Positions 1,106 to 58,209 of a stretch of DNA of 64,000 nt are shown here, in pieces; position 1 is the stretch's first letter, and each line of letters starts with the position of its first letter. The notes beneath the pieces were generated by a model. The model saw only the letters and a program-made list of their open reading frames with translations. It was not told where the DNA came from and ran no database searches. A program made the position numbers and the translations under genes. Origin of the DNA: Eremomyces bilateralis CBS 781.70 (taxonomy: Eukaryota; Ascomycota; Dothideomycetes; Eremomycetales; Eremomycetaceae); the NCBI RefSeq assembly GCF_010015585.1, contig NW_022985085.1, positions 316,384 to 380,383 on the forward strand, given 5' to 3'.

Positions 1106-2146
1106 CTATCTCCCTGGAACCTCCCCCGCTCCCCAAGCCCTCAACTCCTCCCCCGTCATCCCCTCCATCATCCGCTTATTCCCCTCCCACTTCGCAAACG
1201 CCGCCGCCTGCAGCAAACAATCACTCAAATCATCCAACTTCCCGATCCCCTCCTCCTCTCCCTTTTTCCTCCGCCCCTTCTTCCCCAGCTCCACAAACGC
1301 CCTCGCCATCTCTCCCGCCTGCCCTTCAAACCCCACCGTTATCCCCTCCCCCTCCCCCACCCCCTCCCTCACCCACCGCCCCACGACCTCCACCCTCCTG
1401 CTCTTCTCCCTTTTTCCTTTCCCCTTCCCCCCCTTCCCCCCCTTCTCCCCTCCAACCCACCACCCCACCACCCTCGCCGGACTCACCCCCACCACCTCCC
1501 TCCTTTCCCCATCCCCCATCCCCAACACGCTCCACAGCCCCATCTCCAACAACCCCACCCGCACCGTCCACTGCTGCACCGCCGCCGCCCCGCCCGTCCG
1601 CCACCGCTGCCGCTCGATCAACACCGCAGATGGCTTATGCGGACGCACCCATTCGTCCACCACCCGACGCGCGAGCGAGGCGAGCGCGGAGGGCGCGAAT
1701 GGGTCGGGGGGGAGGTATGTTGTTTGCAGAGAGTCGGAGGGGGTGGGGGAGGGCGAGGGGACGGCAGGGACGAGCTCGATACGCCGCCAGTGGGTGACGG
1801 TAAGGGATGGGGATAACGATGAGGATGCAGGGGGGAAGTCGAGCTGCGCGACGCAGATTCCCAGGTTACGGAGGCCGAGGTCGATGCTGACGATGGTGGG
1901 ACGGGGGGTGGGGGAGAGGCGGTGGAGGTGGAGGGCGGTGCGGAGATTGGTGAGGAGGGTGGGTTTGGTGCCGGTGGTCGGGGCGCCGAGGTGGTGGAGG
2001 AGGGTGCGGAGGTGGGTGGTGGGGAGGGGTGGGATGGAGAGGGAGTGGATGGGGTGGGTGGAATGGATGGGTCGGGTGGATGGGGGGGTACGGAAGGAGG
2101 GGGATGGATGGAGGGTTCGGGAGAGGGTAGATCTAGACGCGTTCAT
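1106..2146 (-). CDS. CCE1: Mitochondrial cruciform-cutting endonuclease (Holliday junction resolvase, Cce1/Ydc2)
   Basis: Single exon, 346 aa. Cce1/Ydc2 enzymes resolve four-way junctions in mitochondrial DNA and have an RNase H-like fold. Visible motifs fit: SIDLGLRNLGIC at about 87-98 (first Asp), LIERQRWR at about 176-183 (Glu) and KLDDLSDCLLQ at about 303-313 (C-terminal acidic pair). The segment at about 44-70 (LRTLLHHLGAPTTGTKPTLL) resembles the SAP-like DNA-binding region found N-terminal to the nuclease in this family. The first 30 residues are rich in Arg, Ser and Pro and nearly free of acids, as in a mitochondrial presequence. Composition is odd: the coding strand is C-rich over the first 40% and G-rich after that, with a basic glycine/lysine insert at about 232-250. 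Confidence 0.85.
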   Translation of the reverse strand: MNASRSTLSRTLHPSPSFRTPPSTRPIHSTHPIHSLSIPPLPTTHLRTLLHHLGAPTTGTKPTLLTNLRTALHLHRLSPTPRPTIVSIDLGLRNLGICVAQLDFPPASSSLSPSLTVTHWRRIELVPAVPSPSPTPSDSLQTTYLPPDPFAPSALASLARRVVDEWVRPHKPSAVLIERQRWRTGGAAAVQQWTVRVGLLEMGLWSVLGMGDGERREVVGVSPARVVGWWVGGEKGGKGGKGKGKREKSRRVEVVGRWVREGVGEGEGITVGFEGQAGEMARAFVELGKKGRRKKGEEEGIGKLDDLSDCLLQAAAFAKWEGNKRMMEGMTGEELRAWGAGEVPGR

Positions 2147-3021
2147 GATATAGAGGTGGACTGAGACTGGTAAGTATCAGGAAACGAAACGAAGAGACAA
2201 AGGAGTGGAAAGTAAATGTATGCGAGCGTCCTTCATTGGAACCATTAAGCAACACAAATCCTCCGGGATCACGGCAAGCATCCACTAATTACCACATTGA
2301 AGTGACAGGCAAAATCATCATATCAACTTTATGAAGGGATGCTGGCCACTCAACAACGACCTGGACGAGATGAAGTTGGACGCGTCGCCAATCATTGGAG
2401 AGCGCGTTTGCACGTGACAGCTCGACTCAAAGCTCAGGATGATTCTGGAGAATAGCACAACACATCGGATGGTCACGAAATCACAATCAATGGAGAATCC
2501 TCTCCAGCTCAGGTAAGTCCTTGTATCTGATATGCCATTATATGGATCCAGATACATCCTAATCGCAGCGGATCGCCACCACTGCTATATATCCAGACGG
2601 CGAGATGCCACGCATCCGCTATATGTTCCATGTCCGAAACCATGCACACCTGTTTCCTCCTCTATAAATCCCCCACTCTCCCACTCATTACCAACAAAGT
2701 GAGTCTTTTAGAATACAAAATATCAACAACCCGGGAGTCCAATCCTTCCACAGGACATAAATGTATCGATACGGCACCGGCAACGAAGCACGGTGCCCGA
2801 AGAAGAAAGCAACAAGCCGCTCGAGTCCCGAACGAGGTTCGAGAAGAAGGATGGAGCCGCCAAACGCAGTCGTGAGCGTCCCATAAGCAAACCCGCAAAG
2901 AACACCAAGCCTGTCTATTTATATTTCGGCACATCATATCCCAACGGCAAAGCAATCGCAAAACAGACACCGGAACCGCATCGCCTCTCGTGGGAGCAGG
3001 GAAGGTCGACGATCGTGCCGA
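2147..3021. other. Intergenic, CCE1 upstream region
   Basis: About 0.9 kb between the CCE1 start and the 3' end of the SKG6-like gene. It is less GC-rich than the flanking genes. Apart from one CACGTG site I saw nothing definite in it. The short open frames here have no splice or family support. Confidence 0.5.
2411..2416. promoter_or_regulatory. CACGTG box upstream of CCE1
   Basis: The palindrome CACGTG, in the context GCACGTGAC, sits about 265 bp upstream of the CCE1 start codon. CACGTG is bound by fungal bHLH factors of the Cbf1 type. Function here is inferred from position only. Confidence 0.3.
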
Positions 3022-5503
3022 TCACGACGGGCCTCGCATGTCCCACTGCGGCTTCAACTGTGCCATGAAATCGTCCTTCGTCCCGACCACCTCCCGCGGG
3101 ATCTTGCCGACCGCCGGCCCGCCGCGGATGGTGTTGAGTGCCACTGCCGACATGCCGGAGCGGTTCGAGCGGATGGAGCCGGCGTCCGACATGTTGTCGG
3201 CGTTGCGGAAGCGGGGGGGTGGGGCGAAGTCCAGGCCGGTGAAGGTGCTGGATTTGCGGAGTTGGTGGCTGGGAAGAGATGTTAGCGGGATTTCATGGTG
3301 GATGGTCACCGAAGGGAGGACTTACGGGGTTGGCATGGCGCTGAGATCGTCGAAACTGCTCGCTAGTGGCGTGAACGGTCGGACACTGGGGCTGTACGGC
3401 CTCTCGATACCCAGGGGCGAATCGGGTCTCCTACCCATCTGCCGATCACGGAATGATGTCGGTGGAGCGAAGTCGGTGGGAGTGAACACCAAGTTGTCCT
3501 CCGTGATCCTTGCTGGCGTCGGGAGGCTGTTCAGTGCTTTCGGTGGGGGTAGAGCTCGACCCGGTGGTGGCATGCGTCCCGATAAGGAAGACATGCCTCG
3601 GGGAGGAAGCTGGTGGTATCGATTCCCGACCGAGGACGCGCCCGACGTACGACTCTGTCCTCCGTTGAAAGAGCGCGGGGGACCACGTGGCGGAGGCGTC
3701 ATGGCGCGGCGACCCATGGGCTGTGCGTATGGAGCGGCGGGACGGCCGCGGTAATCGGGTTCGTAGTGATGAGCGTCGGGTCCATAGTACTCGGCACCAT
3801 AGTCTTCGTAGTATTCTGGACCGGCCTGGTGCGGACCGGCTTGGTATGGGCCGGTCTCATAGTAGTGATTGCGAGGAATGGGCTTGTTTTCGTCGAAATA
3901 CTCCTTGTAAAAGGAGCGAATCCGGTTAGCGCGCTCTTCGGGGTTTTCGACCACGTCGTCCAATTCAGGGAGGGGGCGGATGCCCATGGAAAGTCGACGA
4001 GGATCGAAGCCGTTGTCCTGAACGGTAAGGCCTTCATTGGCGTATTCTTCGACGACCGGAAGTGTGGACCTGTTGGCCTGAGACTGACGATAATCGTCGG
4101 GTGCGCCCTCCAGGGATCCTCGAGGCGGTGTCGCTGCCGTCAGTTTAAAAGCATCGCCATAGTCGCTCACACTGCTGGCCATGCTTGTCGTCTTGGAAGC
4201 ATAGTTTAATGACTGACCACGTGGCGGACGGGATGTTTCGGGCAAGCCTTTGGGTGGCATCGACGGAGCGACCTGCGGAGGGGACGAAGGGATCTCCGGA
4301 AGTGGTGCTTGTGGTTCTAGCCCTCTTGGCGGTTCCTTTTCATGGTCCTGGAATTCGTTTGGCGGTGATAGAGGCTTCGAATTGGTCTGGAACGAGTCCG
4401 ATAACTTGTCCTTATCGAAGTCAAAGGTCGGCAACGGTGCCTCTGACTTCATGTGAGCCGCGCTCGGCGGCATTGGGAACTGCTCATCGAGCGATGGGGC
4501 CGCGGAAGGATCCGCCGTGGAATGATCTGCCGTGGAGGGATCCCCACTATGGATAAAGCTGCCCAGGTAATTATTGCTCGCCCGAATCGCTTTGGCATTC
4601 TTGTCGAAGTACGAATCCCGCGCGGCATCGGCAGTCGGTGGAGCCAAACCAGCACGAGGAGTCCCGCCCGCATGCACGGGTTGCGGTGCTTGTGGTGCCA
4701 TCGAGTCGCCGCGTTGTGGAATCGAATGAGACATCCCCTGGGCATTGCGCATCAGATTGGCGGTGGACTCGGTACCAGCACTGGATCCCGTGAAGGTGGA
4801 GGCATTATCACCACGTACTCTGTTAGAACGGTAAGGACCGTCGTTGGAGCCAAAGGTAACGGGACGATAGGGATCGTGGTTATCGTGCATGGATCGTGAC
4901 AGCGAATGGATCGAGTCTCGCGAGCCTTGCACGGCAGCGGGAAGAAGGTAGGGACTTCCAACCAGATCCATCGACATACCACGACCTCGACCTCGACCTC
5001 GACCCAGAGCTTGCTCCGTATCGGTGATGGTCATTTCGGGGACGTTTCCATTCTTCCTCCCCTTCCTTTTCTTGCCGTCTGGATATCCGTACGATTCGCC
5101 CAAGCCAAAATCCAGGCTTTTGTGTTTGTCCTTAGCATCCTCCTCTCGTTGCTTTCTCACATGTCTTCGGTGTAGGAAGAAAAAGGCAACAATTGCGAAG
5201 AAGACGGGAATCCTGCAATTCTGTTAATGATCTCCTCCATTCCACTCGGGTGCCATAAACATACGCAACGGATAAACCGATGATCAACGAGGTATTACTA
5301 ACGGTTGGCAGCGGGCCACAGGTTCGTTCCTTCGGATCACACGTCTTGCTGGCTTCCTCTCGGGATGTCAAATCCGGCGTCCTGGGTACCAAGGATGGGG
5401 CCAAGAGCTCCGGTTCAGGACCCGGAAGCTTGGGTTCGGTAATGTCGGAGAAGATATCATCGAGTCCACGTCGATGGAGGTGGGAGTGCGAATGGGAGTG
5501 CAT
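3022..5503 (-). CDS. SKG6/AXL2-like single-pass membrane protein
   Basis: Three exons, 5503..5265, 5212..3326 and 3268..3022, encode about 790 aa. The first ATG lies at 5503, with an in-frame stop upstream. It starts with a His/Ser-rich stretch (MHSHSHSHLHRR). One strong transmembrane helix spans the first splice junction (TSLIIGLSVAIPVFFAIVAF, about residues 74-94) and is followed by a basic stop-transfer (HRRHVRKQ). The rest is a long, disordered, Pro/Ser-rich cytoplasmic tail with an RGRGRGRG run, an RIRSFYKEYFDE segment and a Tyr/Gly/Pro-rich patch. A single helix with a long cytosolic tail is the layout of fungal SKG6/AXL2-type proteins, which act at sites of polarised growth. The family call rests on architecture, so the cell-polarity role is an inference. 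Confidence 0.65.
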
Positions 5504-7716
5504 GCTGGCATGCACCAAAGATGTGAGGGTAGATCACTGCGGTGTAGGATACGGGGAGGCAGGAAAGCAGCACGATCGCTGCGATTTGGGTGTCCTCGAC
5601 GGGTTTAGGAGGGGAACATTCGTGAATCCAGTTCCAAACGAATGCCAAAAATTGTTCAATCGTTTCCTCGGGGCGTGACGGTCGTGATGGGATCGGAGGG
5701 AAGTAAAATCGGGAAAACGACGAATAGATTAGTAGCAATAATGATGCTGCATACGCGACAATTAACAGAAAAGGAGTGACGGTCGTTCCCAACGAACGGA
5801 AGTCAAGGTAATCAAGGAATGAAAGACTCGGGTGAGTTTAAAGAATAGCGGAGGACCGAACCGCGTGGGAAGACGAAATCAAGAATAACGAGTGAAGACT
5901 CTGAAGAGAGTTGGATCGGTGCCGAAAGGAGTGGACGGATGAAACATGAAGAAGTAGAGAAGTGAGAGCGAGAGAGAGAGAGGGTGAGGGCAGGAGGTGT
6001 TCTGGGGTGTGGTGTCAGGTGTGCGGTGTTCCTAGTAAGTAGTGGTAGTATGTGTAAGAGCCGGAGAGGCGATGACAGGAATGGCCATGGCGGATAGTGA
6101 ACTGGTTTCTGAGCAAAGGAGGTCTGGCTCCTCACTCCTGGAGTTCTGGCTGTTGGGAGCGTCCTGGGCTGCGTCCGCCTGAGGCTTGAGTGCTTGACAG
6201 CTCGAATGAAGCAGGAACGACTGAGGCTCGGACGGCCCAATGCCGCTAGACAGGGGATCATCCCCGATTTCATTTGACTCGGCGGACCCGCGAGCCCCAA
6301 GCGCGGCCAATTCGGCCAATCAGTAGTCGTTATTTCTGACATCCAAATTCCAATCTGCAAGGGCGACAACCCCGGTCGGCTGCCAATCATACAGGCGATA
6401 GGTAAAACACTAAAACTGCGATTCATGGAGGACAATCAAAGAAGCATGGAGTATATACTATGCAGTGACACGGATTCGATAGATTTGTGTAATCATCTCA
6501 TTACAAAGGCATCCAAACATTGTACCCAAACAATTGTACCAACTACCATCGTGTACTCGAAAGCTTGATCTCCGGTATTCCATCAAGGGCGGGTGACTTT
6601 CCAGTAGCGTCAGGTACGCTTCCTTAGCGACTTGGCACCGGGGTCCCCCTGTGGTTCCCATCATGCTGACACGCCCGAGTCCATTGGGGACACACATCGG
6701 TATGGTTCTTGCATGGGCACATTCCACTTCATCTCCAGTCCAATTTCAACGTCTGGAATCACTTGGAAAGATTGCAAAGGCCGATCTCAACCCACACGTT
6801 GAAAAATACTACGTAAGCAACCGCGACAAGAAGCTCTTCCGGAGCTTGCCTATCGTGGTTCGCGGGGTTCTCCACGCTTGCCAATCAGATTCAAGCATCT
6901 CCAAGCGACCCCGATTGCAACCAGCACAGCTTAAATAGGATCGCCCGGCTGTCAAGTCGGCTTGGCTCTCCTATCTAATAATAAGAATCGTCCGTCCACC
7001 GGTAATCATATTGGAACTTTTTGGCGCGTTTCACTTTCATGGTGGATTGTGAGATTCCTTTGATGAACTTTCAAAGGCAATTGAGTGAATTTGTCCGTGA
7101 GTCCGTTGTGGGCTTGCGGGTTTGCGGCGCTTTGTTGAACGGGCGATTGCACGCACTACGGAGGACGGGTCTCACAGATGACACAGAATGACAGCAGGGA
7201 ACCCACCTTCCCCTGAGCAGGACCACTTCTGCCAGACTGCCGCTCACCACGAGGTCCTCGATGATCTGGTGGAGCAGGTGCATGTGAGCGATATTCACTT
7301 GATGCCTGATAGGCCATGCAGATGAAGTATCGAAGATAGATGTCGATCTTATGAATTATGAAGAATCGACTGCGGTATCATTCCTCTTTGACAGGTCGAT
7401 ATCAATATCCTCTATTTTTCGGTTTTGGCATTGTCCCGTACCACAAAGACGCATCTGACGCAAGGGCATGAGACATCAATTTCCTCCGCTCTAAGTGGGC
7501 CTTTGCTTGCTGACAATAATGACATCCTGCTAAACCACCATGTTGCTTGTGCGATCACGGAATATGGTGGACGGTAAAAACAAGAATCCGAGTTAGGCAT
7601 AAGCAGCCAATGCGATGGTCTATTCTGATCGAGCAATTGATCCTTGAGTGATATCTCCGCCAGCTTTTGTACGCCCAACGAAACCTCACCATCCCAAAGC
7701 GTCACTACCCAAAGCA
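5504..7716. other. Long intergenic region upstream of the SKG6-like gene
   Basis: About 2.2 kb between the SKG6-like start and the 3' end of ELP1. The first 900 bp upstream of the SKG6-like gene are rich in CT/GA runs and are probably promoter and 5' leader. The open frames seen there start at non-ATG codons or look like leader sequence. I found no RNA gene or repeat. Confidence 0.5.
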
Positions 7717-16933: not shown

Positions 16934-17960
16934 ATGAATACTCTTATCCCTACGCAGCCACTGCTCGCTCCTCATCTGCTCCCAAACTCCCGTCTATCCC
17001 CCTCTCGTTCAAGTATGTATCCTTCTACTCCCGACTTCGTTCTGACTCTTCATATTGACAGCTTCATCTACAGTTTCCTCGCCCGCTACGTCCATGTCAT
17101 CAAGAAAGAGAAAGGCGGACGATGACATCAACAATGAAGACAATGAGATGCGGATGTCCGCCTCCCCATCCAACTCCCCGTCGATGGGCAACCGCCAACT
17201 CCCATCGTTCCCATCACAACGACATACCCAGAAGCGACTCCGACTAAACCGGGATTCCCGCTCCCTCGCCCTTCCTCGGCTGCTCGAAACCCTGGATCAA
17301 AACGAACTCCGCTCCCTCCTCCGAACCATCTGCGACCGGAACCCACAGATCTCTGCGGAAGTATCCCAGTGCGCCCCGCGGCCGAGTGTGGGTGCGGTGT
17401 TCAGCGTGTTATCCAACTACGAAAACGCATATCGTACCGCCCTCCCGTACGGCACCCGGGAGGGGTCCGATTACTCGTACAACCGCGTCCGCCAACCCCT
17501 CCTCGAACTCCTGGACGCCCTCAAAGATTTTACCCCGAACTTCCTCCCCCCGAACGAGCCACAGCCGACCATCTCCCTCGGATACCTCGACCGCGCCACG
17601 GAGATCATCCATCGGCTGCCGGAATGGGACTCCTTCCAACACAACCGACACAAGCACGACGCATACGAAGAACTTGCGGCGGCGTGGGCGGTGGTCATCC
17701 GCGAAGCGTCGAAGCGGGCGGGGGGGATCCAGCTGCATAACGGTGAGTGGGACCAGAAATTGCTCAAGCACAACGAGGCATCCGGCGGACGAATGGAGGA
17801 GGCATTGCAGGTGATGCGGCAGCAGCTGGGGTGGATCAGCGGCGACGTCGGGCGTCCGATGGCGGGATCCTCGCAGCAGGAGCATTCCGAGCCGTCGTCC
17901 ATTCGCCAACAGTTGCTGAACGGGACGTACGCACAGGGGGTCCGGGTGGGGCCGTGGTAA
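16934..17960 (+). CDS. STS1: Nuclear proteasome tether Sts1/Cut8
   Basis: Two exons, 16934..17012 and 17062..17960, give 325 aa. Sts1/Cut8 holds the 26S proteasome in the nucleus. The protein starts MNTLIPTQPLLAPHLLP, then has a Ser/Pro-rich linker and a classical basic signal (SSRKRKADDD) just after the splice. The conserved family segment TQKRLRLNRDSRSLALPRLL follows, then LLETLDQNELRSLLRTICDRNP, and the helical Cut8 domain (LGYLDRATEIIHRLPEWDS). The C-terminal tail is Gly/Gln/Ser-rich. The neighbour MTR4 is also nuclear RNA/protein quality control but no operon-like link is implied. Coding composition changes from C-rich to G-rich near 17650. Confidence 0.9.
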
Positions 17961-25272: not shown

Positions 25273-25587
25273 ACCACCGAACACGTGTGTCGAGCGGATG
25301 ATGATAATCAAATATCAATTGACTGAGTACGTAGTCGTGTATGTTTCCGTCCCGCCATCATGCAAGCATTCCGCCCACCGGTCCTCAAAACCAAACCTCT
25401 ATAGAAGGGTATATATAATTCGGTGGGGGTAGGTAACTCGTCCTGTGATCTAATCTGAGGGTATTCCCCTTCCAGATGTCCGGATATCCATCCCGTCACG
25501 GCGCCCCACCCCCCTCCATCGCCCAGCGACAGATCCATCTATCCTCTCTGCATCCTAACGCTCCATTCCGCGATCCCTCCCCACCAT

Positions 25588-26093
25588 CTAGGCAAAAAGA
25601 CTCGCCCCCCCGCTCTCAATCGCCTCAATCTCCGCCGCCGACCACTTCATCCGCTGAAACCGGCGCGGCAGCTCGCTCCGGTCGAACAGCTCGCCGCGCG
25701 CGGGCGCGACGGGGCCCAGGTCCTTGCCCGGGTGGGCGCCGATGTGGCGGGCGGGCGGCGGGGGCGCGTTCAGCGGGCCGTGCTGCTGGGCTTTCTGGCG
25801 GTAAGACGCGAAGGAGTTCCAGGTGCTGGGGAGGGAGGAGGTGGGGGATTCGGGGTGGGGGTGGGGGGTATGGTCGATTGCTGAGAGGGGGTTAGTAAGG
25901 GGAGTAGGATTGAGTTTGGGTGGATGAGTTGGAGGGTGGAATGGAGGTGGATAAGCCCATAGAGGGGAGTCCATAGGAGCGATATCTACGGTAGGGCTAC
26001 CCATTCGATCTACGTACTGGCTGGAGTGGCTCTCTTCCCCAAGAACTGAATCATGGGCTGCCTGTGCTGCAACAGCCGTCGCGTCGCGTTCAT
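25588..26093 (-). CDS. KGD4: Alpha-ketoglutarate dehydrogenase subunit 4 (Kgd4/Ymr31)
   Basis: Two exons, 26093..26018 and 25880..25588, give 122 aa. Kgd4 links the E3 component to the core of the mitochondrial 2-oxoglutarate dehydrogenase complex; it was once listed as a mitoribosomal protein (Ymr31, MRPS36). The N-terminal presequence is basic (MNATRRLLQHRQPMIQFLGK). Then come DHTPHPHP, the conserved SYRQKAQQHGPLN block and the C-terminal E3-binding signature ELPRRFQRMKWSAAEIEAIE ending SGGASLFA. An alternative open frame reaching into the intron has an ATG but lacks the presequence, so the spliced form is preferred. It is head to head with MED18. Confidence 0.88.
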
Positions 26094-26952
26094 CGTGACT
26101 TTTGGAAAGGTTGGAAATCCGTCTCGGAAGGATCGGAGCGAATCGGAACGGGATATATCAACGAGAACAGGGGCCGCGGAGCAGGTCTAGAGGCACGATG
26201 AGCCGTCTCGGACGGCGAAGAAGAGAATTAAGACAGATGAGCAGGTTGGATGACGGAGGGAGGTTGTGAGGAAGCGAAAGATTCAGAAGTTGGGGGAGAT
26301 ACTGGGGAATTGGGAGGGATGGTGGTGGAATATATTATTGTGGTGCTGAATCTTCTGCGGTTGGAATGGTTCGGGTGATGATCATCCAACTTCTGGCGCT
26401 GGCTGCTGCTACAGTTCCGACGTGGGGCGCCCATGCCGCCTCCTCCCCCGTCAGTCAGCACCAGCACATCATCTGGCGCAACCGCTGCGGATTTCGGAGT
26501 TGGCCTAGTTCGTCTCAATGGACCATGGTCGTTATCGGAGCATGTGAGATTAATATGAGATTTATTATGAGTGGCTGGTTTGCGAATGGCTTCATGAATT
26601 GAATGCGGACCGAGTCTTGATGCAGAGGACAATAGGAACGTCCGTAGTATTGTGAGCACGTCTATTGAGACCCTCCTATGGAACAGGTATTATTGTTGCA
26701 ATGATTCCTTTACAATTCACTCCGAGTCCAGTGGTTTCCATTTCTATTTCCATGTCCTTTAGCCTACTTCATATTCGACATATCTCTATACCATCAAAGT
26801 TCACTCATTGGCATGTCTAGGCTACATATTCCGTCCAGCGGATAGACAGCTGAATCCATCACCTCCACCATCGCTAAAGACTCCCTCCGAATTCTCGACC
26901 GTCCCATCGCCAAACCATCCTCCACAGTCCCCAACCCCCACCATCCATCACC
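26094..26952. other. Shared KGD4/MED18 promoter region
   Basis: About 860 bp between divergent genes. A 143-codon open frame on the minus strand at 26228-26659 starts at GTG, has no splice or family support and is not called. No other feature recognised. Confidence 0.5.
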
Positions 26953-27863
26953 ATGATCGAACTCCTCCTCTACGGCACCATCCCCTCCTCCCGCCACCTC
27001 CAACTCCTCAACATCCTCGCCGCCCACACCGCCATGAGCCCCGTCCCGGACAACTCCCACAACGTCCTCCTCCGCCCCGCCAAACCTCCCCCCGCCAAAC
27101 CAACCCACCTCGGCGGCTCCCAGGACATCCGTACCGCCCGCTCCCCTAGCCGCGCCGGCGCTCCCCCCGAGCAGCTGTCCATCTGCCGCGTGTCGAAGGA
27201 ACTCGGGCCCGCGGGTCGCTCGGACCGGTCGCGGCGGACGTCACGGCAGGAGGATGCGACGGGACCGGAGGCGGGGACGGAGAGCAGCGCGGTGGAGCTG
27301 GGGAATTCCATGGAGGTGAAGTTCGCGGGGAAAGATAAGACGAGCGGGATCTGGACGATGCGCGTGGAGGAGGTGCCGGAGCCGGGGCAGCGGCCGGTGG
27401 TGGTTCGGACGGTGGTGGAGACGACGCGGATCGAAGGGGATATAGGCGCGTGGGCGGAGGGGATGGGGTATGAGTACGTGCTGCCTCGCCAACCGGATTG
27501 ACCGAAGGAGAAAAAATATGTCCAGCTCACCGTTTCACTAGATTCATTTCCCATCACGTCCTCAGCGGCCACCACCTCGTCCATGGCAACCTCCTCATCC
27601 GCATCCATCGCGTCTCCCTCCTCCCGATGCCGACCGTGCTCGCATCGCTACCAAACGACGCATGTCTGCAGCTGGCGGAGCTGCCGCTGCTGGATCCGGC
27701 GGGGACGTATACCCTGGAGGTGTCGGTCCGCACTATGGACAAGGCGAAGCCGGAGCTGATCCAGGCGGCGACGGCGGAGCTAGAGGCGTTCCGCGCGGAG
27801 ATGAAGGGCGTGGTGGCGTTGAGTGTGCCGGATCGGTTGGCGATGGATACGAGGGTGCGGTGA
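26953..27863 (+). CDS. MED18: Mediator complex subunit 18 (Srb5)
   Basis: Two exons, 26953..27473 and 27542..27863, give 280 aa. Med18 is a head-module subunit of Mediator, which bridges activators and RNA polymerase II. The start MIELLLYGTIPSSRHLQLLNIL is the classical Med18 N-terminus. A low-complexity linker follows. The spliced segment GYEFISHHVLSGHHLVHGN and the C-terminal PLLDPAGTYTLEVSVR and MKGVVALSVPDRLAMDTRVR match the family's beta-barrel core. The donor was set at GA|GTACGT because it restores the frame and the GYEF signature. Each exon changes from C-rich to G-rich within itself, near 27185 and near 27655. Confidence 0.9.
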
Positions 27864-28596
27864 GGTGGTGGGAGGGAGGATTTCCATGGGACGTTTCCTT
27901 GGATGGCTGGAGCAGCTGCTTATGAGGACTGATCCGTTCCAAAAGCGCAATCAATGACCAAACTACAAGCAAGATTTCTAAACCTCAATCACAAATTCAC
28001 GTCCTGAACAACACCTGAAATTATCGTTTGATATTGATTTATGGATATCACCATTCCCGCGGACATTTAACCGCTCCGCATCCCCTGCGCCGACCTAAGA
28101 TGCCAATGCATCAATGGATTAAGCCGCTGAAGAAGCCCGCCGTCAAGGACGGGGACGGCCCCCACTGCCTCATTATGCGGGCCGAGCCACCGACCAAGGA
28201 GAATCCCTCCAGCGTTCCGTGCTGTTAAAGGGGTAGGGGATATCATAAGGGCAAAAGGATATCGTACAACCATGCGTGCCGCCCCAGGAGTCGAGAAAGG
28301 ACATTTCCCTGAAAGAAAAATCTCCAGACTTTTGGCGCGCATTTTCCTGCCCGTTTCCATGTTTTGGGTAGGGTCCGGGAACACCGAGCGAGCGAGCGAA
28401 GCCGTCTAGTCCTCGTGCTAGGCGCTTGGAAGAATAGTGTATATCGTGAGGTGTATATGTTGGTTCCTCGGTAAATGAGCTGCATGGGATATCCTCGGAC
28501 GCGTATCGATCCCATATCGTGATGGTCGTCCCGTTAAAGTCTATTAGATCGTGATCGTCGTGAACAAATGAAATCGTCGCTGGTATCCTCCTCGCG
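27864..28596. other. Intergenic containing one possible micro-gene
   Basis: About 730 bp between the convergent MED18 and the Ser/Pro-rich gene. A GC-rich patch at 28060-28230 contains a 42-codon open frame described separately. The remainder is AT-richer and shows nothing. Confidence 0.45.
28100..28228 (+). CDS. Possible 42-aa cysteine-ended small protein
   Basis: An ATG frame of 42 codons, MPMHQWIKPLKKPAVKDGDG at the start and SSVPCC at the end, lies in a GC-rich patch inside an otherwise AT-richer gap. The sequence is protein-like: basic start, Cys at residue 29, then PCC at the C-terminus. I do not know a family for it. It could equally be the last exon of a gene whose first exon I could not find, or 3' UTR of MED18. 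Confidence 0.25.
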   Translation: MPMHQWIKPLKKPAVKDGDGPHCLIMRAEPPTKENPSSVPCC

Positions 28597-44424: not shown

Positions 44425-45895
44425 TCAAACAATATCCCACTGCCCTCGACGATACTTCGGTCCGCTATGGACCAAATGCCGCTCATCCTCATCTCTCGGA
44501 TTACTCTGCACCGTGATCTCGCGGGTATACTTCACCGCCCGGCTCGGCAACTCGATCCCCCCCATATCATCGCTGGCGGAATCGAAGCTCTTCATGGCGT
44601 GGATCTGCGATTTCGACTGGCTGCCGCCCAGGTCGGTGATGCTCTCGGTCGGCAAGGTCTGGAAGGACTTCTTGACGCTGCTGCGGTTGGAGAACTTCTT
44701 GCTGCGGCCGCCCGAGTAGCCGGCGGCAGCGGAGGAGCCCTGGGTGGTGCCGAAGATGCGGGGGAAGACCTTGGCGAGGATGGGCTTGATGCCGTGGAAG
44801 CAGGAGAAGATCATGCCGAGGTTCCATTCGATGCCGCCGAGGATCCAGATGACGTTACCCTCGTCTGCACCGGGAGGTTAGTGCGAGGTCCGATAGAAGG
44901 GGGAGCATGGCTGCGGCAGACGGCTTACAGAATAGATCGAAGACTTTTGGAGGGATGAAGATAAGGTGGATGTACCAGGCGCGGAGAACACCCACGATGG
45001 AAATGCTGTGACTGCGTCAACGATGCTTCTCGAAGCGTACAGGGAAGGCGGACTAACAGGGAGCCAACCGAGAATACAAAGACGAGCCCTAAGCGCGTCT
45101 TCAACGGTTGCTGGATCTTCCACAGAGCCCGAGATGGCCACCAGTAAATGAGGAAGTCTGTAGCACTATTCAAAGCGCCAGCGGCAATCGAGAAGCCCGA
45201 TCGATTGATACACACTGTTGGCGGGACGCTCAAATCCCAAAACGACTGGACTGGACTGCTTGGATGTAAGCTAAGGAGTACATTGGCATGGTAAGAGGCA
45301 CCACGTACAGGCATTGGAAAATCGTCACCAGCGACATGCTGATCATGAACCCCAGGAGAAAGGCGATCATTAGGTAGCAGAACATGCGGTTCGCTTTGGA
45401 AGGGAAAATCCGCAGGTACGTGAAGCAGAGCGACAGTTTGGGGAACGTGACGTTAACGTTGAACAACGTAGTGGCTGCCAAAGATATCTACCACGTCGTT
45501 AAAAAGTGCGTTCGATGGTTTGGATGGTCGTAAATACCTTCTGGTACCCCCCATACCACTCCATTTTGAAGTCCCATACGTGATAGCCAGCTCCATACTT
45601 CCAATGTATGGTGGCTAACACCGTTGTGCCGATGATGGCTAACTGAAGAGATGTCAATGACGGCCGTTGACTGACTGGCACTTGGAAGCCATACCACACC
45701 AACCATGATGCAATAGTCATCCATTCCAAACCCTTTTGCCAGATTTAATCGGATATATAGTCTCGCAGCGACAAACATTAACATCAAAACCATGCCCGCG
45801 AGGAGGCTGCCCAGAGTAGCGGGGACCATGGTCGAAGGGTTCACATAGTTCGGCGCCGGCCAAGTGGCCATGACCTCAGGAGGAGCAAGCGACAT
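44425..45895 (-). CDS. Fungal rhodopsin-domain integral membrane protein
   Basis: Six exons, 45895..45695, 45642..45538, 45487..45309, 45255..45058, 45005..44929 and 44864..44425, give 399 aa. Seven hydrophobic segments can be read in order: LGSLLAGMVLMLMFVAARLY, MDDYCIMVGVLAIIGTTVLA, FNVNVTFPKLSLCFTYLRIF, CYLMIAFLLGFMISMSLVTI, AGALNSATDFLIYWWPSRAL, LVFVFSVGSLISIVGVLRAW and GGIEWNLGMIFSCFHGIKPI. The R-x-R-x-x-x-x-GxDDY and DFLIYxWP motifs are typical of the large fungal rhodopsin-like/PTH11-related membrane family. The cytosolic tail is Ser-rich. There is no retinal-lysine motif I could recognise, so light sensing is not implied. Ligand and role are unknown. Confidence 0.85.
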
Positions 45896-49110: not shown

Positions 49111-50303
49111 ATGGCTACCGTCAACACCCAAGCACCGCAGACCGTGCACCCCAACACCCACGTCGGTTTCGACAGCATCACCTCCCAGATCGAGAAGAAG
49201 CTGTTGAAGCGTGGGTTCCAATTCAACGTGATCTGCGTTGGTATGTTGCCTCCAATTCATCCCGAGCTCCAGACCACCCCTCTAACGTCGCGAAGGACAA
49301 ACCGGCCTGGGTAAGTCCACGCTCATCAACACCATTTTCGCCTCGCACCTCCTCGACAGCAAAGGCCGCCTGGCCCCCGACGAGCCGATCCGCAGCACCA
49401 CCGACATCCAGACCGTCTCCCACATCGTCGAAGAGAATGGCGTGCGCCTCCGCTTGAACATCGTCGATACCCCGGGCTACGGCGACCTGATCAACAATGA
49501 CCGCTGCTGGGACCCCATCGTCAAGTACATCAAGGACCAGCACAGCGCGTATCTGCGCAAGGAATTGACCGCCCAGCGTGAGCGGTACTTGCAAGACACC
49601 CGGATCCACTGCTGCCTGTTCTTCATCCAGCCGTCCGGCCACGCGTTGAAGCCCATCGACATCGTGGTGCTGAAGAAGCTGTCCGAGTTCGTCAACGTCG
49701 TGCCCGTCATTGCGAAGAGCGATAGCTTGACGTTGGAGGAGCGCCAGGCCTTCAAGGAGAGGATACGAGAGGAGTTCACGTTCCACAATGTGCGCATGTA
49801 TCCGTACGAGAACGAGGAGTACGACCACGAGGAAGTAGTTCTCAACCAGCAGATCAAGGTAGGAAGCACCATCATATTCGACGGCTGCATATGCTAATCC
49901 GCTTTCAGAGCATGATCCCGTTTGCCGTCGTCGGCTCGGAAAAGACCATTGTTGTCGGAGGCAAGCAGGTGCGCGGTCGTCAGAACCGCTGGGGTGTCAT
50001 CAACGGTACGCTTCCCAATAGTCCACCATAACTTAGACCATCCGCTAATATAATTAAACCACAGTCGAGGACGAGTCTCACTGCGAATTCGTCTACCTCC
50101 GCGACTTCCTCCTCCGCACCCACCTCCAGGATCTCATTGAGACCACCTCGCAAATCCACTACGAGTCCTTCCGCGCCAAGCAGCTGCTGGCCCTCAAGGA
50201 GAGCAGCGCCGTCGGCCACTCCGGCAGCCGCCCCATATCCCCCTCGGCCGACCGCGAGCTGAGCCGGAACTCGCAGCGCATGACCATGTCGAACGGCTAC
50301 TAA
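49111..50303 (+). CDS. CDC10: Septin, Cdc10 type (AspD)
   Basis: Four exons, 49111..49240, 49296..49858, 49909..50005 and 50065..50303, give 342 aa. Septins form GTP-binding hetero-oligomeric filaments at septa and growing tips. The G1 motif GQTGLGKST at about 44-52 is completed across the first splice. G3 DTPGYGD and G4 AKSD are present. The basic region before G1 (KKLLKRGFQFNV) and the septin unique element near the end (VEDESHCEFVYLRDFLLRTH, then DLIETTSQIHYE) are clear. There is a very short N-terminus and no C-terminal coiled coil, which identifies the Cdc10 class. A GTAAGT inside the P-loop codons is coding, not a donor. Confidence 0.94.
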
Positions 50304-53371: not shown

Positions 53372-53874
53372 ATCCGCGTATAGGCCCTGAAGGAGTGACA
53401 GTGCCACCGCAATTCAAACCTGAATCTTAAAATCTTAAAATATGCCTTGGATGAGAAGTTGAAAGTGTTCATGATCGCCTGTGTGGTTGCATCACGTGTT
53501 GTATAAGTTGAGAAGGAACGACACTGGAGGATACTGCAGTTTGCTGCGAGCATACCTACCGTACCTTAACTGTGTGGTCGAAATGATAGAATTCAGAAAT
53601 ACATCAGTTGAACGATAATTTGAGGACTGGGACTAGGATGGCTGGAAGAACTACGAGGGACAATTGACACAATCAAAGGGGGACCCGAAACATCGTACAG
53701 ATGGAATGTTAATCTTCCGTACGTTACCATAACCACGAGATCACCTCAGTATTTACTGACTTCAAATGGAAAGGGATAGTTGAGGTGGCGGTAATCTCTT
53801 TGCAAGAAGCAGATATATACAGAAGTCGCTTCTTCCCGAACGAAGCCACCCGTACGCCGATCTAGACTGAATGG
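53372..53874. other. Intergenic, RING-gene promoter
   Basis: About 500 bp between the RING-gene start and the stop of the complex I subunit, both minus strand. It contains a CACGTG box near the RING gene. Nothing else was seen. Confidence 0.5.
53493..53498. promoter_or_regulatory. CACGTG box upstream of the RING-protein gene
   Basis: ATCACGTGT about 122 bp upstream of the start codon at 53371. Regulatory use inferred. Confidence 0.35.
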
Positions 53875-54590
53875 CTATGCAAACGATCTGCAAGGATAGC
53901 TGCTGAAAGTCCAATGTTAGCGATGTTCCTGGAACCACCCCATTCGACTTTAGAGATTGCCACTATATCAACTCACCTAGTGTCATATCCTTGCTCTGCC
54001 TCCGCCAACAACCGGTAATCCTTTGCTCCCACATTCCCCGTTGTTGGATGCATGTTCGTTGGCATTGGCGGCAGTCCACCGGCTTCCAACACGTCCGCTA
54101 CCGCTTTATCCTTCCCTTGGAAGAACGCCGCCAACCCCTTTTCCCCCGCCTTCAGTTCCACCAGCTGCTTCTGCCCCGCATCACCGATGAGGAGGACATC
54201 CTCTTTGGGCGCCGCCTTGCTGCCAACCGTCAACAGCCCCACGACATCGGCGGGCTTCACAACACTGAGTCGCGCATATCCTCGGCGAACGTCTCGCTTC
54301 CAGTATGGATTGTCCGCCAGGTCCGCAGCAGGAACGGTAACCGGGTCGTCGTATGTATTCGGATCGTTGGCTCCCGGGGGCGGGTTGCGGAATTGAGGGT
54401 TCAGCGGAACACCGGTCGATCGGTCGGGGTCAATGGCGAGCCATTTGTTGATCCAGGCACCAATACCACGAGGTTGGACGGTGTATTTCTACGCATCGGG
54501 ATGACGAAGATCAGCTTGATATCACGTTCGGGGGAAGGTGAGACGGGTGCATACGTAAAAAGTGGATGTCACTTTGCCTGAAGGCGGCAT
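53875..54590 (-). CDS. NADH:ubiquinone oxidoreductase 21.3 kDa subunit (complex I, NUZM type)
   Basis: Three exons, 54590..54555 (36 nt), 54488..53977 and 53902..53875 (28 nt), give 191 aa. This is a supernumerary subunit of fungal mitochondrial complex I. The order of conserved blocks is KYTVQPRGIGAWINKWLAID, PLNPQFRNPPPGA, DNPYWKRDVRRGYARLSVV, VGLLTVGS and the very C-terminal YPCRSFA. The last exon was placed because it has a GCTAACAT branch site, a TTTCAG acceptor, keeps frame and restores the YPCRSF ending. Without it the frame stops at a less typical end. Head to head with the Tcp11-domain gene. Confidence 0.85.
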
Positions 54591-55260
54591 CGTGAATACC
54601 AGATCAGCTGTTTGACGGTGAAACTGACCGGACTCGTGCAATTCAGATGCAATTGACCTTCAAGGTTGGTACGGATCGATGGATTCGACGATACAGGTGT
54701 GAGTATGGGAGAGGATCGGATGGACGCACGTGACCATGACATCCCCGTGGGCGACTTGGCAACAAAACCGTTTTCAGCCTGAGGCAACTTTTGATTGTTT
54801 AAGCAACAATTCCTAAGCAACAATTCCCCACCAAATCATCAATCACGTGCAGCTGGCATGTCTCTCCTTCCTCCATCCATCGAGTTCCATGGCGATGATG
54901 CGACGCTCAGCGACAGCTGCTCTCCGCTGCTGCTTTGATTACGATTCCCTCATCTCGACATGCGACACTTCTAATTTCCCTGTTCACTCCTCCTCGTCCT
55001 CCTTGGATTTTCCTTCTATTGTCTTCTTTATTTACTTCTTCTACACTTGGGTGTCTTGCTATATTCATTTCCCTTTTCTTTATCCTTCGCTTTCACTGTG
55101 AACGTCGCTGACCAGTCATACCGTCGTTTACCACCCGCTCATCCTCGTCCATTCGTCATCAATACTTAGGCTTCCGAGTCTCACCGTCCAGCACCCGGTG
55201 GCATACATACGCTCTACAACACCTTACATCGCGGACAACGGCCACTGCCCGCTGCCCAAT
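54591..55260. other. Shared promoter of the complex I subunit and Tcp11-domain genes
   Basis: About 670 bp between divergent genes. It has a CACGTG box near the middle and a strongly CT-rich stretch at 54940-55110, which is likely the 5' leader of the Tcp11-domain gene. Confidence 0.5.
54844..54849. promoter_or_regulatory. CACGTG box between divergent genes
   Basis: ATCACGTGC about 254 bp from the complex I subunit start and 412 bp from the Tcp11-domain start. Either or both genes could use it. Inferred. Confidence 0.35.
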
Positions 55261-58209
55261 ATGGCTATCAATCCTAAACTGCAAGAGCTGGACTTGCCAG
55301 GCCTCCAAACCGCTGCTGGTATACCTGAAGAAGACGATACCTTGGAACAATCAGTGGAGTCGCCCACGACGCTCAACCCTCCAGCTCGTCTTGCCTCACG
55401 CTTCTATCACTCGTCATCCGCTCGCCGAAAGTCCTCAGCCGCTTCTTCTCGCAGGAACTCCATATCGTCCACCCACTCCCATCAATCGAACCGTTCGTAC
55501 CGAGGCACCAACTGTCAAAGCAATCATGTCGCTCAACATCTCCGTCGCGCTTCTATCATAGAGAGCCGCAAAGCTCGTCTTGCGGATCGAGCTGCACATG
55601 CCGAACAAGTCCGGCTACGTGCCGCATTGGCCAAGGCTGCGACTCGCGCTTCAAACAGCGAAGAACGAGCCCTCGCCGCCCAGCACGCGCGTGAGAAGCA
55701 CCTCGCACAGGTCGCCGCTGCATGCGCCGAGGAGGTCAAACGCGCAAAGAAGGTAGCGGAGGAGATGAAAGAGCGAAAAGCAGCGGAAGAGCAGAGATAT
55801 CGGTTGGAGATGGAGGAGAAGCATGCAGAGGCGGAAAGAAGGCGTGCGGAGTATAAGAAAAATATGAGGAGACCTCGTACCGCCAGTGTACCTGCCACTG
55901 ATGCAAAGAAGGAGCTTGCATCTGGTACTCAGTCACCCAAGAGACTGAGTGACCTGACGGCCGCGGCCACGATTCAGGAAGCCTGGAGAAGGAACCGCCG
56001 GAGAAGAGCGCTGGAAGCTTTCGTCGGGCTCGGCCTTACGGTTGAAAAATCGCAAGAAGCGAGCTTCGATGACATATCGACAGTCCTTGCAGACGACAAA
56101 GTGGTGAATAACACTATCCGCGTCCTGGAGATCTTCAACTTGGATGCAGCGGATGACAAGACAACGGTCCCGACGCGGACATTCCTAAGCGCCTATCTAA
56201 TACTCGGTCACCCGGCATCAGTTCTAAGCAGAGATGGTGCCCAAGAACAAGACCTTATCAACAAAGCAAAAGACCTTATGATCTGCTTTGAAGCGGCGGT
56301 TTTGAAAGCGATGGAATCGAGCCGCTACATGCCGACTCCGACCCAATTGGAACATTTGTCGTTCGCCTTCACGGCTTACCGGCAATCTTTTGGCGATTGG
56401 AAGGCTCGCGACTCCTCTGCACTCATCGAAGCGATGGTCGCTTCCTTTGTTAACCTCGACGCCATATGGCAATCCGTGAAAGACTACACGGATGGCGAAG
56501 TGGCTGCCGATTACCGCGAAGGTATTCGAGAAAATCAAGTCATTCTTCTAAGCAAAATCCGAAAACTGGCTGGCCCTGATAAAACTCATAATCTCATCAA
56601 GCGAGCGATCAGAGAAAGCCGAAGAGCTCGGCCACGACCGAAACCCCTTGGCGACACTCGCCCTAGGGTTGATGTGGACACCGAGGCGGAGAGTTCCAGG
56701 GAACAAGCTACGCCGTCGCATTCACCGGAAGCGACTCATTTGATATCGGCGAGCGGCGCGGAAACTCATGATGAACTCCAGCCGTCAAATTCATTCGGGA
56801 ACTTGTTCTCGCTTCTTCCAACCAACCGTAAACTTGTCCACGAACTTGCCATCAACAAAGAATATCGGATTGAACCCTCACCTCAATCCGATTTCCGTCA
56901 CGTTTTCAGCCGACAACTATGCGATGATATGAAACGCGGTTTCGAGCAAGGTGAAGGTAACCTATGGACGGTCTCGATGGCCGAAAACATTCGAGGCAAA
57001 CTATTGCGACTCCTCCGAGAGGGCAACTCGATGTATAACCTGATCTCCGAGGCGCTCGATCCTTCCTGGGTTGAAAGCCAATGCAACGCGGGAAATTTCT
57101 CCTATGAGAAGTTCTTCAAGTTCATGGCGGACATCCTCCCTCGACTCTGTGCGCCGTTCCGAGACGGGGAAGTCAAGGAGTTGGTGAACGAGCTGCTGGC
57201 GCCTGGTGATTTAGGTGAAATGATCGAGAAGGTTTTCAAACTCCTCCGGACAATTGATCTCCTCTCGCTGGATCATGCGAACTTCATGCTGACAACTGCT
57301 GTCCCTTCGCTCATTGCGGAATCGGCAGGCTATGAACAACGCATGTTCCGACAAGATCTAGAATCCGGAAAGGTTACTCTCGCACAGACTAAACGTTGGT
57401 GGCACAACGCCAGCGTTAACCTGTTTACGGAATTTGACCGCCGCGATCCGGATGCAGTCGGCGGGCCAAATAACCGGCCGACCATGCAACGTATCTATGC
57501 GCGAGGTCTTGTCGATCTCTCCGTCGCCGTCCCCTCCCTCCGTGGCGACGAACTCCCCGAAACCCTTTCCTTTGACCAGGACCGCATTGTGCGCATCCGC
57601 GCGGACACTGTGCGTATTACTACCATCGGCGCGATGTTGCTCACCGCCAAAAACCTGCTCAAGCGCGACGTGCGCAGCCAATGGCGGCCCGAAGCCAACC
57701 GGATCTGGGATCTGCTGAAAAACTCGGGCCACACCTCGATGACGGTTTCATCTTCTCTCCCATCCCCCCCTCCCTCGCCATCTTCATCCGCCGCGCCATC
57801 GGCACTGGCGAACTCCATCCTGCAAATCCTCACCTCCGCTCATCCCATGCCCACGTCTTCTCAATCCACCCTCCTCGCGACGGTCACCCGTCACCTCACC
57901 CAAGCCGCTTCGGGCCGGCTTACTGACCCGGTGTTGAAAGTCCTCTTCTCGCGCCTCCGGGCCCACATATTCGCGCGCGTCGCCGCGAGCAGCTCGGGCG
58001 AGCGTGTACGGAGAGCCGCGACGGCTGGAGAGGGGCTCAGCAGCAGCGGTCTGGGCGAGTTTGTGGAGCGGGTGGAAGGACTGGTCGAGGAGCTTGGGCG
58101 GGTGACGAAGGTGGACTGGGCAGGGCATGCGGAGTGGTACGAGCAGCTAGTCCGGGAGGTGGAGGAGGGTGCAGAACGGGAGGCGAAGGGCGAGAGTCCG
58201 CTCAGTTAA
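55261..58209 (+). CDS. Tcp11-domain protein (Sok1-related)
   Basis: Single exon, 982 aa, from the ATG giving MAINPKLQELDLPGL. The frame extends upstream only from a GTG. After a Ser-rich N-terminus there is a long charged helix, about residues 95-200 (RKARLADRAAHAEQVRLRAA, then ERKAAEEQRYRLEMEEKHAE). An IQ-like motif follows (AATIQEAWRRNRRRRAL, about 237-253). The remaining 700 residues are helical and match the Tcp11 family, with the AILPxLCAPxRDxEV-type block (here ILPRLCAPFRDGEV) and RIYARGLVDLSVA. Yeast Sok1 of this family acts in cAMP/PKA-linked growth control; the molecular function is unclear. It has no introns despite its length, unlike its neighbours. The last 450 bp change from C-rich to G-rich. 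Confidence 0.85.
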   Translation: MAINPKLQELDLPGLQTAAGIPEEDDTLEQSVESPTTLNPPARLASRFYHSSSARRKSSAASSRRNSISSTHSHQSNRSYRGTNCQSNHVAQHLRRASIIESRKARLADRAAHAEQVRLRAALAKAATRASNSEERALAAQHAREKHLAQVAAACAEEVKRAKKVAEEMKERKAAEEQRYRLEMEEKHAEAERRRAEYKKNMRRPRTASVPATDAKKELASGTQSPKRLSDLTAAATIQEAWRRNRRRRALEAFVGLGLTVEKSQEASFDDISTVLADDKVVNNTIRVLEIFNLDAADDKTTVPTRTFLSAYLILGHPASVLSRDGAQEQDLINKAKDLMICFEAAVLKAMESSRYMPTPTQLEHLSFAFTAYRQSFGDWKARDSSALIEAMVASFVNLDAIWQSVKDYTDGEVAADYREGIRENQVILLSKIRKLAGPDKTHNLIKRAIRESRRARPRPKPLGDTRPRVDVDTEAESSREQATPSHSPEATHLISASGAETHDELQPSNSFGNLFSLLPTNRKLVHELAINKEYRIEPSPQSDFRHVFSRQLCDDMKRGFEQGEGNLWTVSMAENIRGKLLRLLREGNSMYNLISEALDPSWVESQCNAGNFSYEKFFKFMADILPRLCAPFRDGEVKELVNELLAPGDLGEMIEKVFKLLRTIDLLSLDHANFMLTTAVPSLIAESAGYEQRMFRQDLESGKVTLAQTKRWWHNASVNLFTEFDRRDPDAVGGPNNRPTMQRIYARGLVDLSVAVPSLRGDELPETLSFDQDRIVRIRADTVRITTIGAMLLTAKNLLKRDVRSQWRPEANRIWDLLKNSGHTSMTVSSSLPSPPPSPSSSAAPSALANSILQILTSAHPMPTSSQSTLLATVTRHLTQAASGRLTDPVLKVLFSRLRAHIFARVAASSSGERVRRAATAGEGLSSSGLGEFVERVEGLVEELGRVTKVDWAGHAEWYEQLVREVEEGAEREAKGESPLS

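Follow-up and report, generated by a model that had tools for sequence, protein, structure and literature searches.

The 64,000-nucleotide window analyzed here comes from the ascomycete Eremomyces bilateralis CBS 781.70 (NCBI RefSeq assembly GCF_010015585.1, contig NW_022985085.1, positions 316,384 to 380,383 of the forward strand). It contains protein-coding genes within which the forward strand changes abruptly from C-rich and G-poor to G-rich and C-poor. The initial annotation listed thirteen such flips, on genes of both strands, and named the genes in which they lie. Pfam matches support the names CCE1 (Ydc2), ELP1, KGD4, MED18, aconitase, Tcp11, STS1 (Cut8) and CDC10 (septin). The sites attributed to an SKG6-like, a rhodopsin-like, a Ser/Pro-rich and a CCZ1 gene have no Pfam match in the open reading frames tried. 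The C-then-G pattern is confirmed to be real, and it is wider than first described.

Flips were located with a two-arm composition model that joins a C-rich left arm to a mirror-image right arm; a hit of at least 50 bits is called an island. The material comprises the window and 260 kb more of the same 26.6-Mb, 62-contig genome (324 kb in all). Of this, 200 kb are 20 stretches of 10 kb at arbitrary places, picked blind to skew. Two of these flank the window, and several sit on contigs with hits in the initial search. The later 60 kb are six stretches beside two island-rich loci; island density there is not representative, but the direction count is unaffected. Genes were predicted from sequence only with a simple purpose-written finder, and MED18, which the finder had split, was joined by hand. 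Gene-level tests used predicted genes with a score of at least 25 (n = 49 for skew at starts and stops, n = 61 for exon, intron and flip-location tests); genes at edges, low-scoring genes and genes containing N were excluded.

Eight of the thirteen listed sites are islands, with the flip placed within 30 bp (1668, 8247, 24767, 25699, 27189, 28980, 43464 and 57995). Two others, at 17675 (31 + 17 bits) and 27656 (18 + 26 bits), are slightly below the threshold. The remaining three are weak: the site at 3125 is one-sided (9 + 33 bits), that at 44573 has 9 + 10 bits, and the flip proposed near 49500 in CDC10 is unsupported (25 + 3 bits, with a largest 150-bp step of 0.29). Many flips fall in frames that carry Pfam domains. 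Coordinates are given in Table 1.

Table 1. Islands, arms and related features in the window (positions count from the first letter of the window)
Feature	Position	Gene or strand	Basis and remarks
CCE1 island, C-rich arm	1110..1668	gene 1106-2146, minus	559 bp, C 0.57, G 0.09; Ydc2-catalyt E 4.7e-43
CCE1 island, G-rich arm	1669..2130	gene minus	462 bp, G 0.57, C 0.12
ELP1 last exon and 45 nt downstream, C-rich arm	7672..8247	gene minus	detector; Pfam ELP1 domains
ELP1 last exon, G-rich arm	8248..8589	gene minus	detector
STS1/Cut8 weaker island, flip at 17675	17158..17866	gene 17094-17960, plus	31 + 17 bits; Pfam Cut8 E 8.9e-82
So-called CCZ1 gene, last exon, C-rich arm	24303..24767	gene plus	detector; no Pfam match
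So-called CCZ1 gene, last exon, G-rich arm	24768..24870	gene plus	detector
KGD4 island, C-rich arm	25466..25699		detector; Pfam Kgd4-YMR31 E 7e-29
KGD4 island, G-rich arm	25700..26380		detector and arm reading
MED18 exon 1 and upstream region, C-rich arm	26856..27189		detector; Pfam Med18
MED18 exon 1, G-rich arm	27190..27480		detector
MED18 intron, skew returns from G to C	27476..27541	plus	by eye, splice signals
MED18 exon 2, C-rich arm	27550..27656		18 bits, below 50-bit threshold
MED18 exon 2, G-rich arm	27657..27879		26 bits, below threshold
Ser/Pro-rich gene, 3' part of long last exon, C-rich arm	28587..28980	gene minus	detector
Ser/Pro-rich gene, long last exon, G-rich arm	28981..29432	gene minus	detector
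Aconitase gene, C-rich arm	42930..43464	gene plus	detector; Pfam Aconitase
Aconitase gene, G-rich arm	43465..43914	gene plus	ends 9 bp short of frame end
Tcp11, 3' end of 2.9-kb exon, C-rich arm	57749..57995	gene plus	Pfam Tcp11 E 5e-111
Tcp11 3' end and first 70 nt downstream, G-rich arm	57996..58279	gene plus	detector

In the 324 kb, the detector found 28 C-to-G islands and seven G-to-C islands. All seven of the latter overlap an arm of a C-to-G island; they are the return between or beside C-to-G islands. The 60 kb fetched once the detector was fixed gave six C-to-G islands and one G-to-C island. When 99-nt blocks were shuffled (ten times), the means were 1.5 and 1.2, respectively, and 50 kb of Escherichia coli K-12 yielded none of either kind. 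The order is also evident when regions are picked on G+C alone: it is C-to-G in 43 of 48 peaks with a G+C of at least 0.62 and in 20 of 20 with at least 0.66. Raw steps over all sequence occur equally in both directions (129 C-to-G, 139 G-to-C; 100-bp arms, step at least 0.6, 264 kb), and they are again near-equal with 150-bp arms in the 84 kb around the window. This is because each C-to-G change has to return, and flip counting at 100 bp over all DNA is thus uninformative. The directions are unequal within single exons, with 46 C-to-G versus 19 G-to-C steps (100-bp arms, step 0.6) or 31 versus 6 (200-bp arms, step 0.5). Skews over 200 bp reach about 0.8. The initial annotation had claimed a sharp, intragenic and strand-symmetric C-then-G order. 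It holds for islands and within exons, even though the equality of the two directions, which would speak against it, applies to raw steps.

Could chance, low-complexity slippage or an annotation artefact produce such a pattern? Small steps are common both ways, and of the 15 rows of tandem repeats in the window, six fall within the islands of CCE1, ELP1 and MED18, more than expected from the share of sequence that these three islands take up. These six rows, however, span about 215 bp of the approximately 6.4 kb of islands in the window, and 28 islands contrast with the shuffle mean of 1.5 and with zero in 50 kb of E. coli. Long runs of C or G are fewer than permuted codons give (see below), and many flips lie in frames with Pfam domains. 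As a full account, this explanation is refuted, and we leave it next to no chance.

The strongest island found is that of CCE1, and its ends nearly match the coding region. MED18 has two C-to-G units, one in each exon (the second below the threshold), and the return occurs at the intron. The claim that the return falls in introns or gaps is borne out. In KGD4, the G-rich arm crosses an intron predicted at 137 nt (G 0.40, C 0.12) and also covers the 287 nt that precede the predicted start (G 0.39, C 0.13). Over STS1/Cut8 (17094-17960), there is also a long minus-strand frame with no convincing Pfam match, which is probably an effect of skewed, stop-poor sequence.

Strong islands may be closely spaced. 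Four strong flips lie within 4.2 kb of the window (24.8-29.0 kb), with the sub-threshold flip at 27.66 kb among them. The 10-kb stretch L009 has four strong islands (L009:1498-9784), and island density is very uneven along the genome. Two AT-richer stretches, L007 and L008 (G+C 0.46 and 0.49, with masked N left out; 1155 and 1935 masked bases), have no islands.

A change from negative to positive skew is the order seen at replication origins, and a replication start had been considered in the initial annotation. Under this explanation, breaks and error-prone synthesis at origins would raise G+C and skew the composition within 1-2 kb. A local G+C rise with skew at a like scale is described for human constitutive origins in the text consulted of PMC9645720. 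The skew-blind 200 kb contain 14 strong islands, about one per 14 kb, and this density is not impossible for origins. Origins, however, would be expected to have one flip each, many kb apart, whereas strong flips cluster in groups of four, within 4.2 kb in the window and within 10 kb in L009. Furthermore, the pattern resets exon by exon, and flips are in coding exons, not in intergenic DNA. A replication origin is thus a very unlikely cause.

The exon emerges as the unit of the pattern. In the 61 predicted genes, G skew increases from the first to the second half (halves of at least 150 nt) in 14 of 18 single exons, 20 of 24 first exons, 35 of 43 internal exons (p = 4e-5) and 28 of 30 last exons. 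At 4-fold degenerate sites, the corresponding counts are 13 of 18, 19 of 24, 36 of 43 (p = 9e-6) and 25 of 30. Among introns with at least 80 nt of exon on either side, skew steps back across 44 of 63, with a mean change of -0.175 versus +0.089 at equal spacing inside exons (p = 1e-9; this value is optimistic, as the 531 within-exon comparison windows are overlapping and not independent). Every exon class moves from C to G, with a reset at introns.

The 24 islands that lie in predicted exons have a median arm length on the coding strand of 367 bp (5') and 347 bp (3'). Across the fitted flip, the mean content of adjacent 20-bp bins changes from 0.46 to 0.22 for C and from 0.23 to 0.46 for G, an abruptness that is partly due to placing flips by fit. 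The flip is also the point of highest G+C. For all 28 flips, with arms folded on the C-rich strand, G+C at 4-fold sites falls from 0.87 at the flip to 0.70 at 525-600 bp, and the C excess falls from 0.66-0.69 at 75-375 bp to 0.06 at 525-600 bp. A G+C maximum that decays both ways is what a hotspot of GC-biased gene conversion would have; here, the flip-centred profile of the 28 islands is partly circular, as islands are found by composition, and the selections on G+C only and on skew only are separate tests. Steps of 0.5-0.8 have a G+C of 0.60 when toward G and 0.52 when toward C (107 and 102 sampled positions). For steps of at least 0.8, the values are 0.66 toward G (18 positions) and 0.53 toward C (2 positions).

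The flips persist at synonymous sites. In 5' arms, 4-fold sites have A 0.07, C 0.68, G 0.18 and T 0.07, compared with A 0.17, C 0.35, G 0.32 and T 0.16 outside islands; in 3' arms, they have G 0.76 and C 0.11. In the 5' arms, C gains over G, A and T alike, while A and T drop equally, leaving no A/T skew. Cytosine deamination on exposed strands is rejected by reasoning, as it would reduce G+C; the change observed is a rise in G+C with an equal loss of A and T. Codon positions 1 and 2 shift as well, and the encoded proteins are affected. Proline makes up 11.0% of residues in 5' arms, 3.3% in 3' arms and 6.7% outside islands. The corresponding values are 3.8%, 12.4% and 7.6% for glycine and 3.5%, 10.8% and 6.9% for glutamate. 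In the eight arms that have at least 700 bp of exon beyond the flip, the C excess is 0.48-0.62 at 75-450 bp, away from any boundary.

The G+C maximum at the centre, the mirror symmetry of the arms, the gain of C over each other base and the presence of bipolar units far inside long exons argue for a focal, two-sided and strand-asymmetric DNA process. We tentatively propose that the islands are the footprint of point-centred, two-sided, strand-asymmetric repair or conversion, most likely of recombination initiation inside exons, and consider this possible though short of probable. Each island would have evolved as the trace of a process that begins in a narrow exon-internal zone and spreads a few hundred bp both ways. 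This process would favour C over the other bases on the strand whose 3' end faces the centre, which is the top strand on the left and the bottom strand on the right. If it started like a double-strand break followed by resection, the exposed 3'-ended strand would be the top one on the left and the bottom one on the right, which is the C-rich strand in each case. In the simplest version, the zone would be a recombination-initiation hotspot where repair of heteroduplex DNA combines a GC bias with strand asymmetry. For example, mismatches with a G on the intact partner would be resolved in favour of that partner. Those in which C stays on the invading strand, foremost C/C, would be poorly repaired, so that C wins there and G+C rises. 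Poor repair of C/C mismatches is known from yeasts, and the arm size resembles that of a resection or conversion tract. The sharp exon edges would require selection that holds introns and untranslated regions (UTRs) AT-rich.

The geometry, size and G+C peak of the islands, their effects on 4-fold sites and amino acids, the intron reset and the preference for 3'-terminal exons (see below) are direct observations, as are matches to meiotic protein families. The latter are family-level matches to Spo11-type TP6A_N (partial, 25-62 of 62), Mnd1, HORMA, MutS_IV and MAT-alpha HMG. The gene content is fungal, and the MAT-alpha match is suggestive of an ascomycete. We infer that the centre is a break, that this break is meiotic and that a mismatch-repair rule as outlined would apply. 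There is a precedent for the location: according to the part of PMC5844332 consulted, 1435 of 2578 recombination hotspots map to exons in Zymoseptoria tritici. A precedent for the shape comes from human replication-initiation sites, where strand-biased mutation tied to breaks is modelled as skew together with a local increase in G+C in the sections of PMC9645720 consulted. A bolder version of the proposal, which we regard as doubtful, is a strand-asymmetric "C drive" at thousands of exon-internal recombination-initiation points, with repair favouring C over every other base on the invading 3' strand. If this were true, a single genome sequence would record each initiation zone to within tens of bp. 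Conserved proteins would be rewritten, with proline, threonine and histidine up on one side and glycine, glutamate, arginine and valine on the other.

A series of observations weighs against recombination initiation; they concern hotspots in another fungus, the position of flips in genes and the DNA beside islands. In Zymoseptoria, hotspot counts scale with those of called sites, without a preference for exons, and GC-biased conversion is not visible at the 10-kb scale (both in the text consulted of PMC5844332). In the present data, 24 of 28 flips are in predicted exons, and the predicted coding fraction is 0.34. Three of the other four fall in Pfam-matched open frames (in L016, L017 and at L009:9292), and the flip in L029 is 50 bp ahead of the predicted start of a Tpt1-like frame. 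Of the 24 exon flips, 19 are in the last or only exon, and the median distance from flip to exon end is 404 bp (all 24). When flips are counted per exon of at least 400 nt, there are 18 flips in 33 terminal exons versus 5 in 35 others (Fisher p = 0.0007). In the five flip-bearing exons longer than 1.5 kb, the flip lies at 0.71-0.93 of the exon, i.e. in its 3' part. Gene orientation therefore matters. Some arms also fail to fade away from the flip: the eight interior arms mentioned above keep a C excess of 0.2-0.5 to about 1 kb. Where the exon edge cuts the arm at 450-700 bp (16 arms), the C excess at 4-fold sites rises edgeward, from 0.47 at the flip to 0.72-0.77 at 300-525 bp, and in the 23 arms cut at 150-450 bp, it stays at about 0.8 past the first 75 bp.

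Two further candidates concern the 3' preference. An effect of convergent neighbours, suggested by eye, was rejected, as the share of gene ends with a strong 3' island is similar for convergent (13 of 28) and tandem (8 of 20) neighbours (gaps below 3 kb; Fisher p = 0.77). In L009, there is a convergent pair of a Ras-like and an acyl-CoA dehydrogenase gene, each with one strong island. Conversion mediated by cDNA, which has a 3' bias, is rejected by reasoning: introns persist, and one arm crosses a predicted intron.

The preference for gene ends is better accommodated by a transcription-coupled strand bias, in which transcription would begin and end under distinct regimes of mutation or repair, with a restart at each intron. 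Such a restart might come about, for instance, if recruitment of the spliceosome suppresses RNA-DNA hybrids. In the 49 predicted genes, the coding strand is C-skewed at starts (-0.24 and -0.26 in the pair of 50-bp bins ahead of the start codon) and G-skewed at stops (+0.32 in the last 50 bp). Such a pattern at the gene level is published for most unicellular fungi (in the text consulted of PMC3315797). The preference of strong islands for 3'-terminal exons, the reset of skew at 44 of 63 introns and the rise of skew toward the exon edge in some arms are also in line with it. Transcription, however, is blind to coding edges, yet skew falls there. Neither the sharp flip nor the G+C peak at the flip is predicted, the two units of MED18 (the second below the threshold) demand an extra reset rule, and the arm in KGD4 crosses a predicted intron without a reset. 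Transcription-linked bias is thus the better fit to the 3' preference and to the arms whose skew is weighted toward exon edges, but it leaves the point centre unexplained, and we consider it somewhat unlikely.

The DNA beside islands also bears on recombination initiation. A process blind to coding should mark neighbouring non-coding DNA at least equally, and a weak non-coding signal therefore counts against it. Islands were defined on coding bases only for this analysis (23 islands). Non-coding DNA within 200 bp of these flips totals only 67 bp. Intergenic DNA 200-400 bp from the flips has a C excess of 0.20 (12 of 16 islands), which is not above the ordinary skew of UTRs, and non-coding G+C near these islands is not raised (0.50). 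Introns at the same distance have a C excess of 0.40 (5 of 6 islands). Under GC-biased gene conversion, non-coding DNA would be affected like synonymous sites, but values of 0.20-0.40 compare with about 0.67 at 4-fold sites. The abrupt loss of signal at exon edges is the main evidence against a coding-blind process. On the other hand, non-coding DNA beside islands does lean in the direction of its island, in favour of the proposal, and introns are related to their surroundings. Among 80 introns, skew tracks that of the flanking exons (rho 0.43 with the exon sum, p = 7e-5), significantly so only for the downstream exon (rho 0.44, versus 0.18 with p = 0.11 for the upstream exon). Introns ahead of C-rich exon starts have a skew of -0.38 (n = 18), versus -0.06 ahead of weak ones (n = 30).

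A signal that peaks in exons and falls at their edges is what selection at the RNA or codon level would leave, either for self-folding exons, in which a C-rich 5' half pairs with a G-rich 3' half, or for C-ending and then G-ending codons. Equal C and G arms would pair, and 4 of 23 islands fold more than 2.4 standard deviations better than arm-permuted controls. Over the 23 of 28 islands covered by the fold test, however, arm-to-arm folding compared with codons permuted within arms has a mean z of -0.64 (p = 0.07). With so weak a gain, base composition and not specific pairing seems to be the target. The arms also differ in amino acids (proline, glycine, glutamate), which is beyond codon choice alone, intron skew correlates with the surroundings, and long runs of C or G are rarer than permuted codons give. 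This explanation fits the exon edges better, but neither the amino-acid shifts nor the lack of specific pairing, and we take it to be unlikely. An individual case is the island L015:6648 (C6x 16648), located in a 1130-residue frame without Pfam match, which, unlike most other islands, folds far better than arm-permuted controls (z of -5.4); it may hold a true inverted repeat or RNA structure.

In the 47 arms within exons (16.6 kb), there are 100 runs of at least five C or G versus 144 with permuted codons, and 36 versus 55 runs of at least six. Homopolymers thus appear as if avoided in the arms despite the skew. Selection for G-quadruplexes was rejected, as runs of at least five and of at least six are rarer than with permuted codons. 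A motif of four G or C runs occurs in 15 of 28 islands (a count without control).

How do the islands relate to known systems? According to McLean and Tirosh (2011), genes of most unicellular fungi have a C bias at the 5' end and a G bias at the 3' end, for which these authors suggested transcription-linked mutation or CTP economy as causes (this and the following comparisons refer to the main text of PMC3315797, as far as consulted). A C-biased start and a G-biased end, an effect at 4-fold sites, amino-acid shifts and the occurrence in fungi are common to both phenomena. Their skew extends into promoters and 3' UTRs, which we count as a likeness to the islands, and the coding strand of our 49 predicted genes is likewise C-biased 5' and G-biased 3'. 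Instead of one gradient per gene, however, 35 of 43 internal exons have a gradient of their own, and there is a reset at 44 of 63 introns. McLean and Tirosh treat a gene-average profile that is fitted by ramps, and the word "exon" occurs 0 times in the main text, while islands flip sharply, reset at introns, peak in G+C at the flip and occur as bipolar units far inside long exons. They report a negative correlation of skew with G+C, while large steps toward G occur at high G+C in the present data; the former is a gene-wide correlation and the latter a step-based value, so that the measures differ. The statement of the initial annotation that there is no standard explanation thus needs to be qualified: a gene-level skew is published with two causes, but exon units and the G+C peak are not treated there. 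The exon reset, the coupling to a G+C peak and the sharp focus are absent from the text consulted and extend the known gene-level skew. Among the matches listed in our literature search, no title or abstract opening mentions exon-level or G+C-coupled flips; subscription journals were mostly outside this search.

GC-biased gene conversion at hotspots causes a G+C peak that decays over a few hundred bp, is strongest at synonymous sites and can change proteins. The islands share the local decaying peak, the strength at synonymous sites and the protein effect. As usually described, such conversion is strand-symmetric and leaves no C-to-G order. The islands differ by being strand-ordered, and they are candidate hotspots. 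CpG-island promoters of vertebrates, which are of the RNA-DNA hybrid type, have a negative-to-positive skew around a bidirectional start. At the flips reported here, no promoter is known, and fungal gene starts are C-skewed on the coding strand, which is the opposite sign (as in the 49 predicted genes and in PMC3315797). Human constitutive origins (Murat et al. 2022; sections consulted of PMC9645720) share a point centre, a G+C rise with skew and a scale of about a kilobase, and their footprint is tied to breaks and error-prone synthesis. That footprint is found at human promoters and splice junctions, whereas islands are in coding exons, are in some cases separated by under 1 kb and show an intron reset.

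The division of many exons into a C-rich and then a G-rich half has the appearance of a mark left by a focused DNA process with a strand bias, possibly recombination. The exon-level reset and the G+C-coupled centre speak against the simplest form of both published gene-wide explanations. The flip is a sharp object on which maps of breaks, origins, RNA-DNA hybrids and transcription can be aligned. If the cause were at the coding level, a hitherto unknown selective force would have to work exon by exon. If recombination initiation is the correct reading, one genome sequence would suffice to locate hotspots, and GC-biased conversion would turn out to have a strand-specific part strong enough to shift protein composition.

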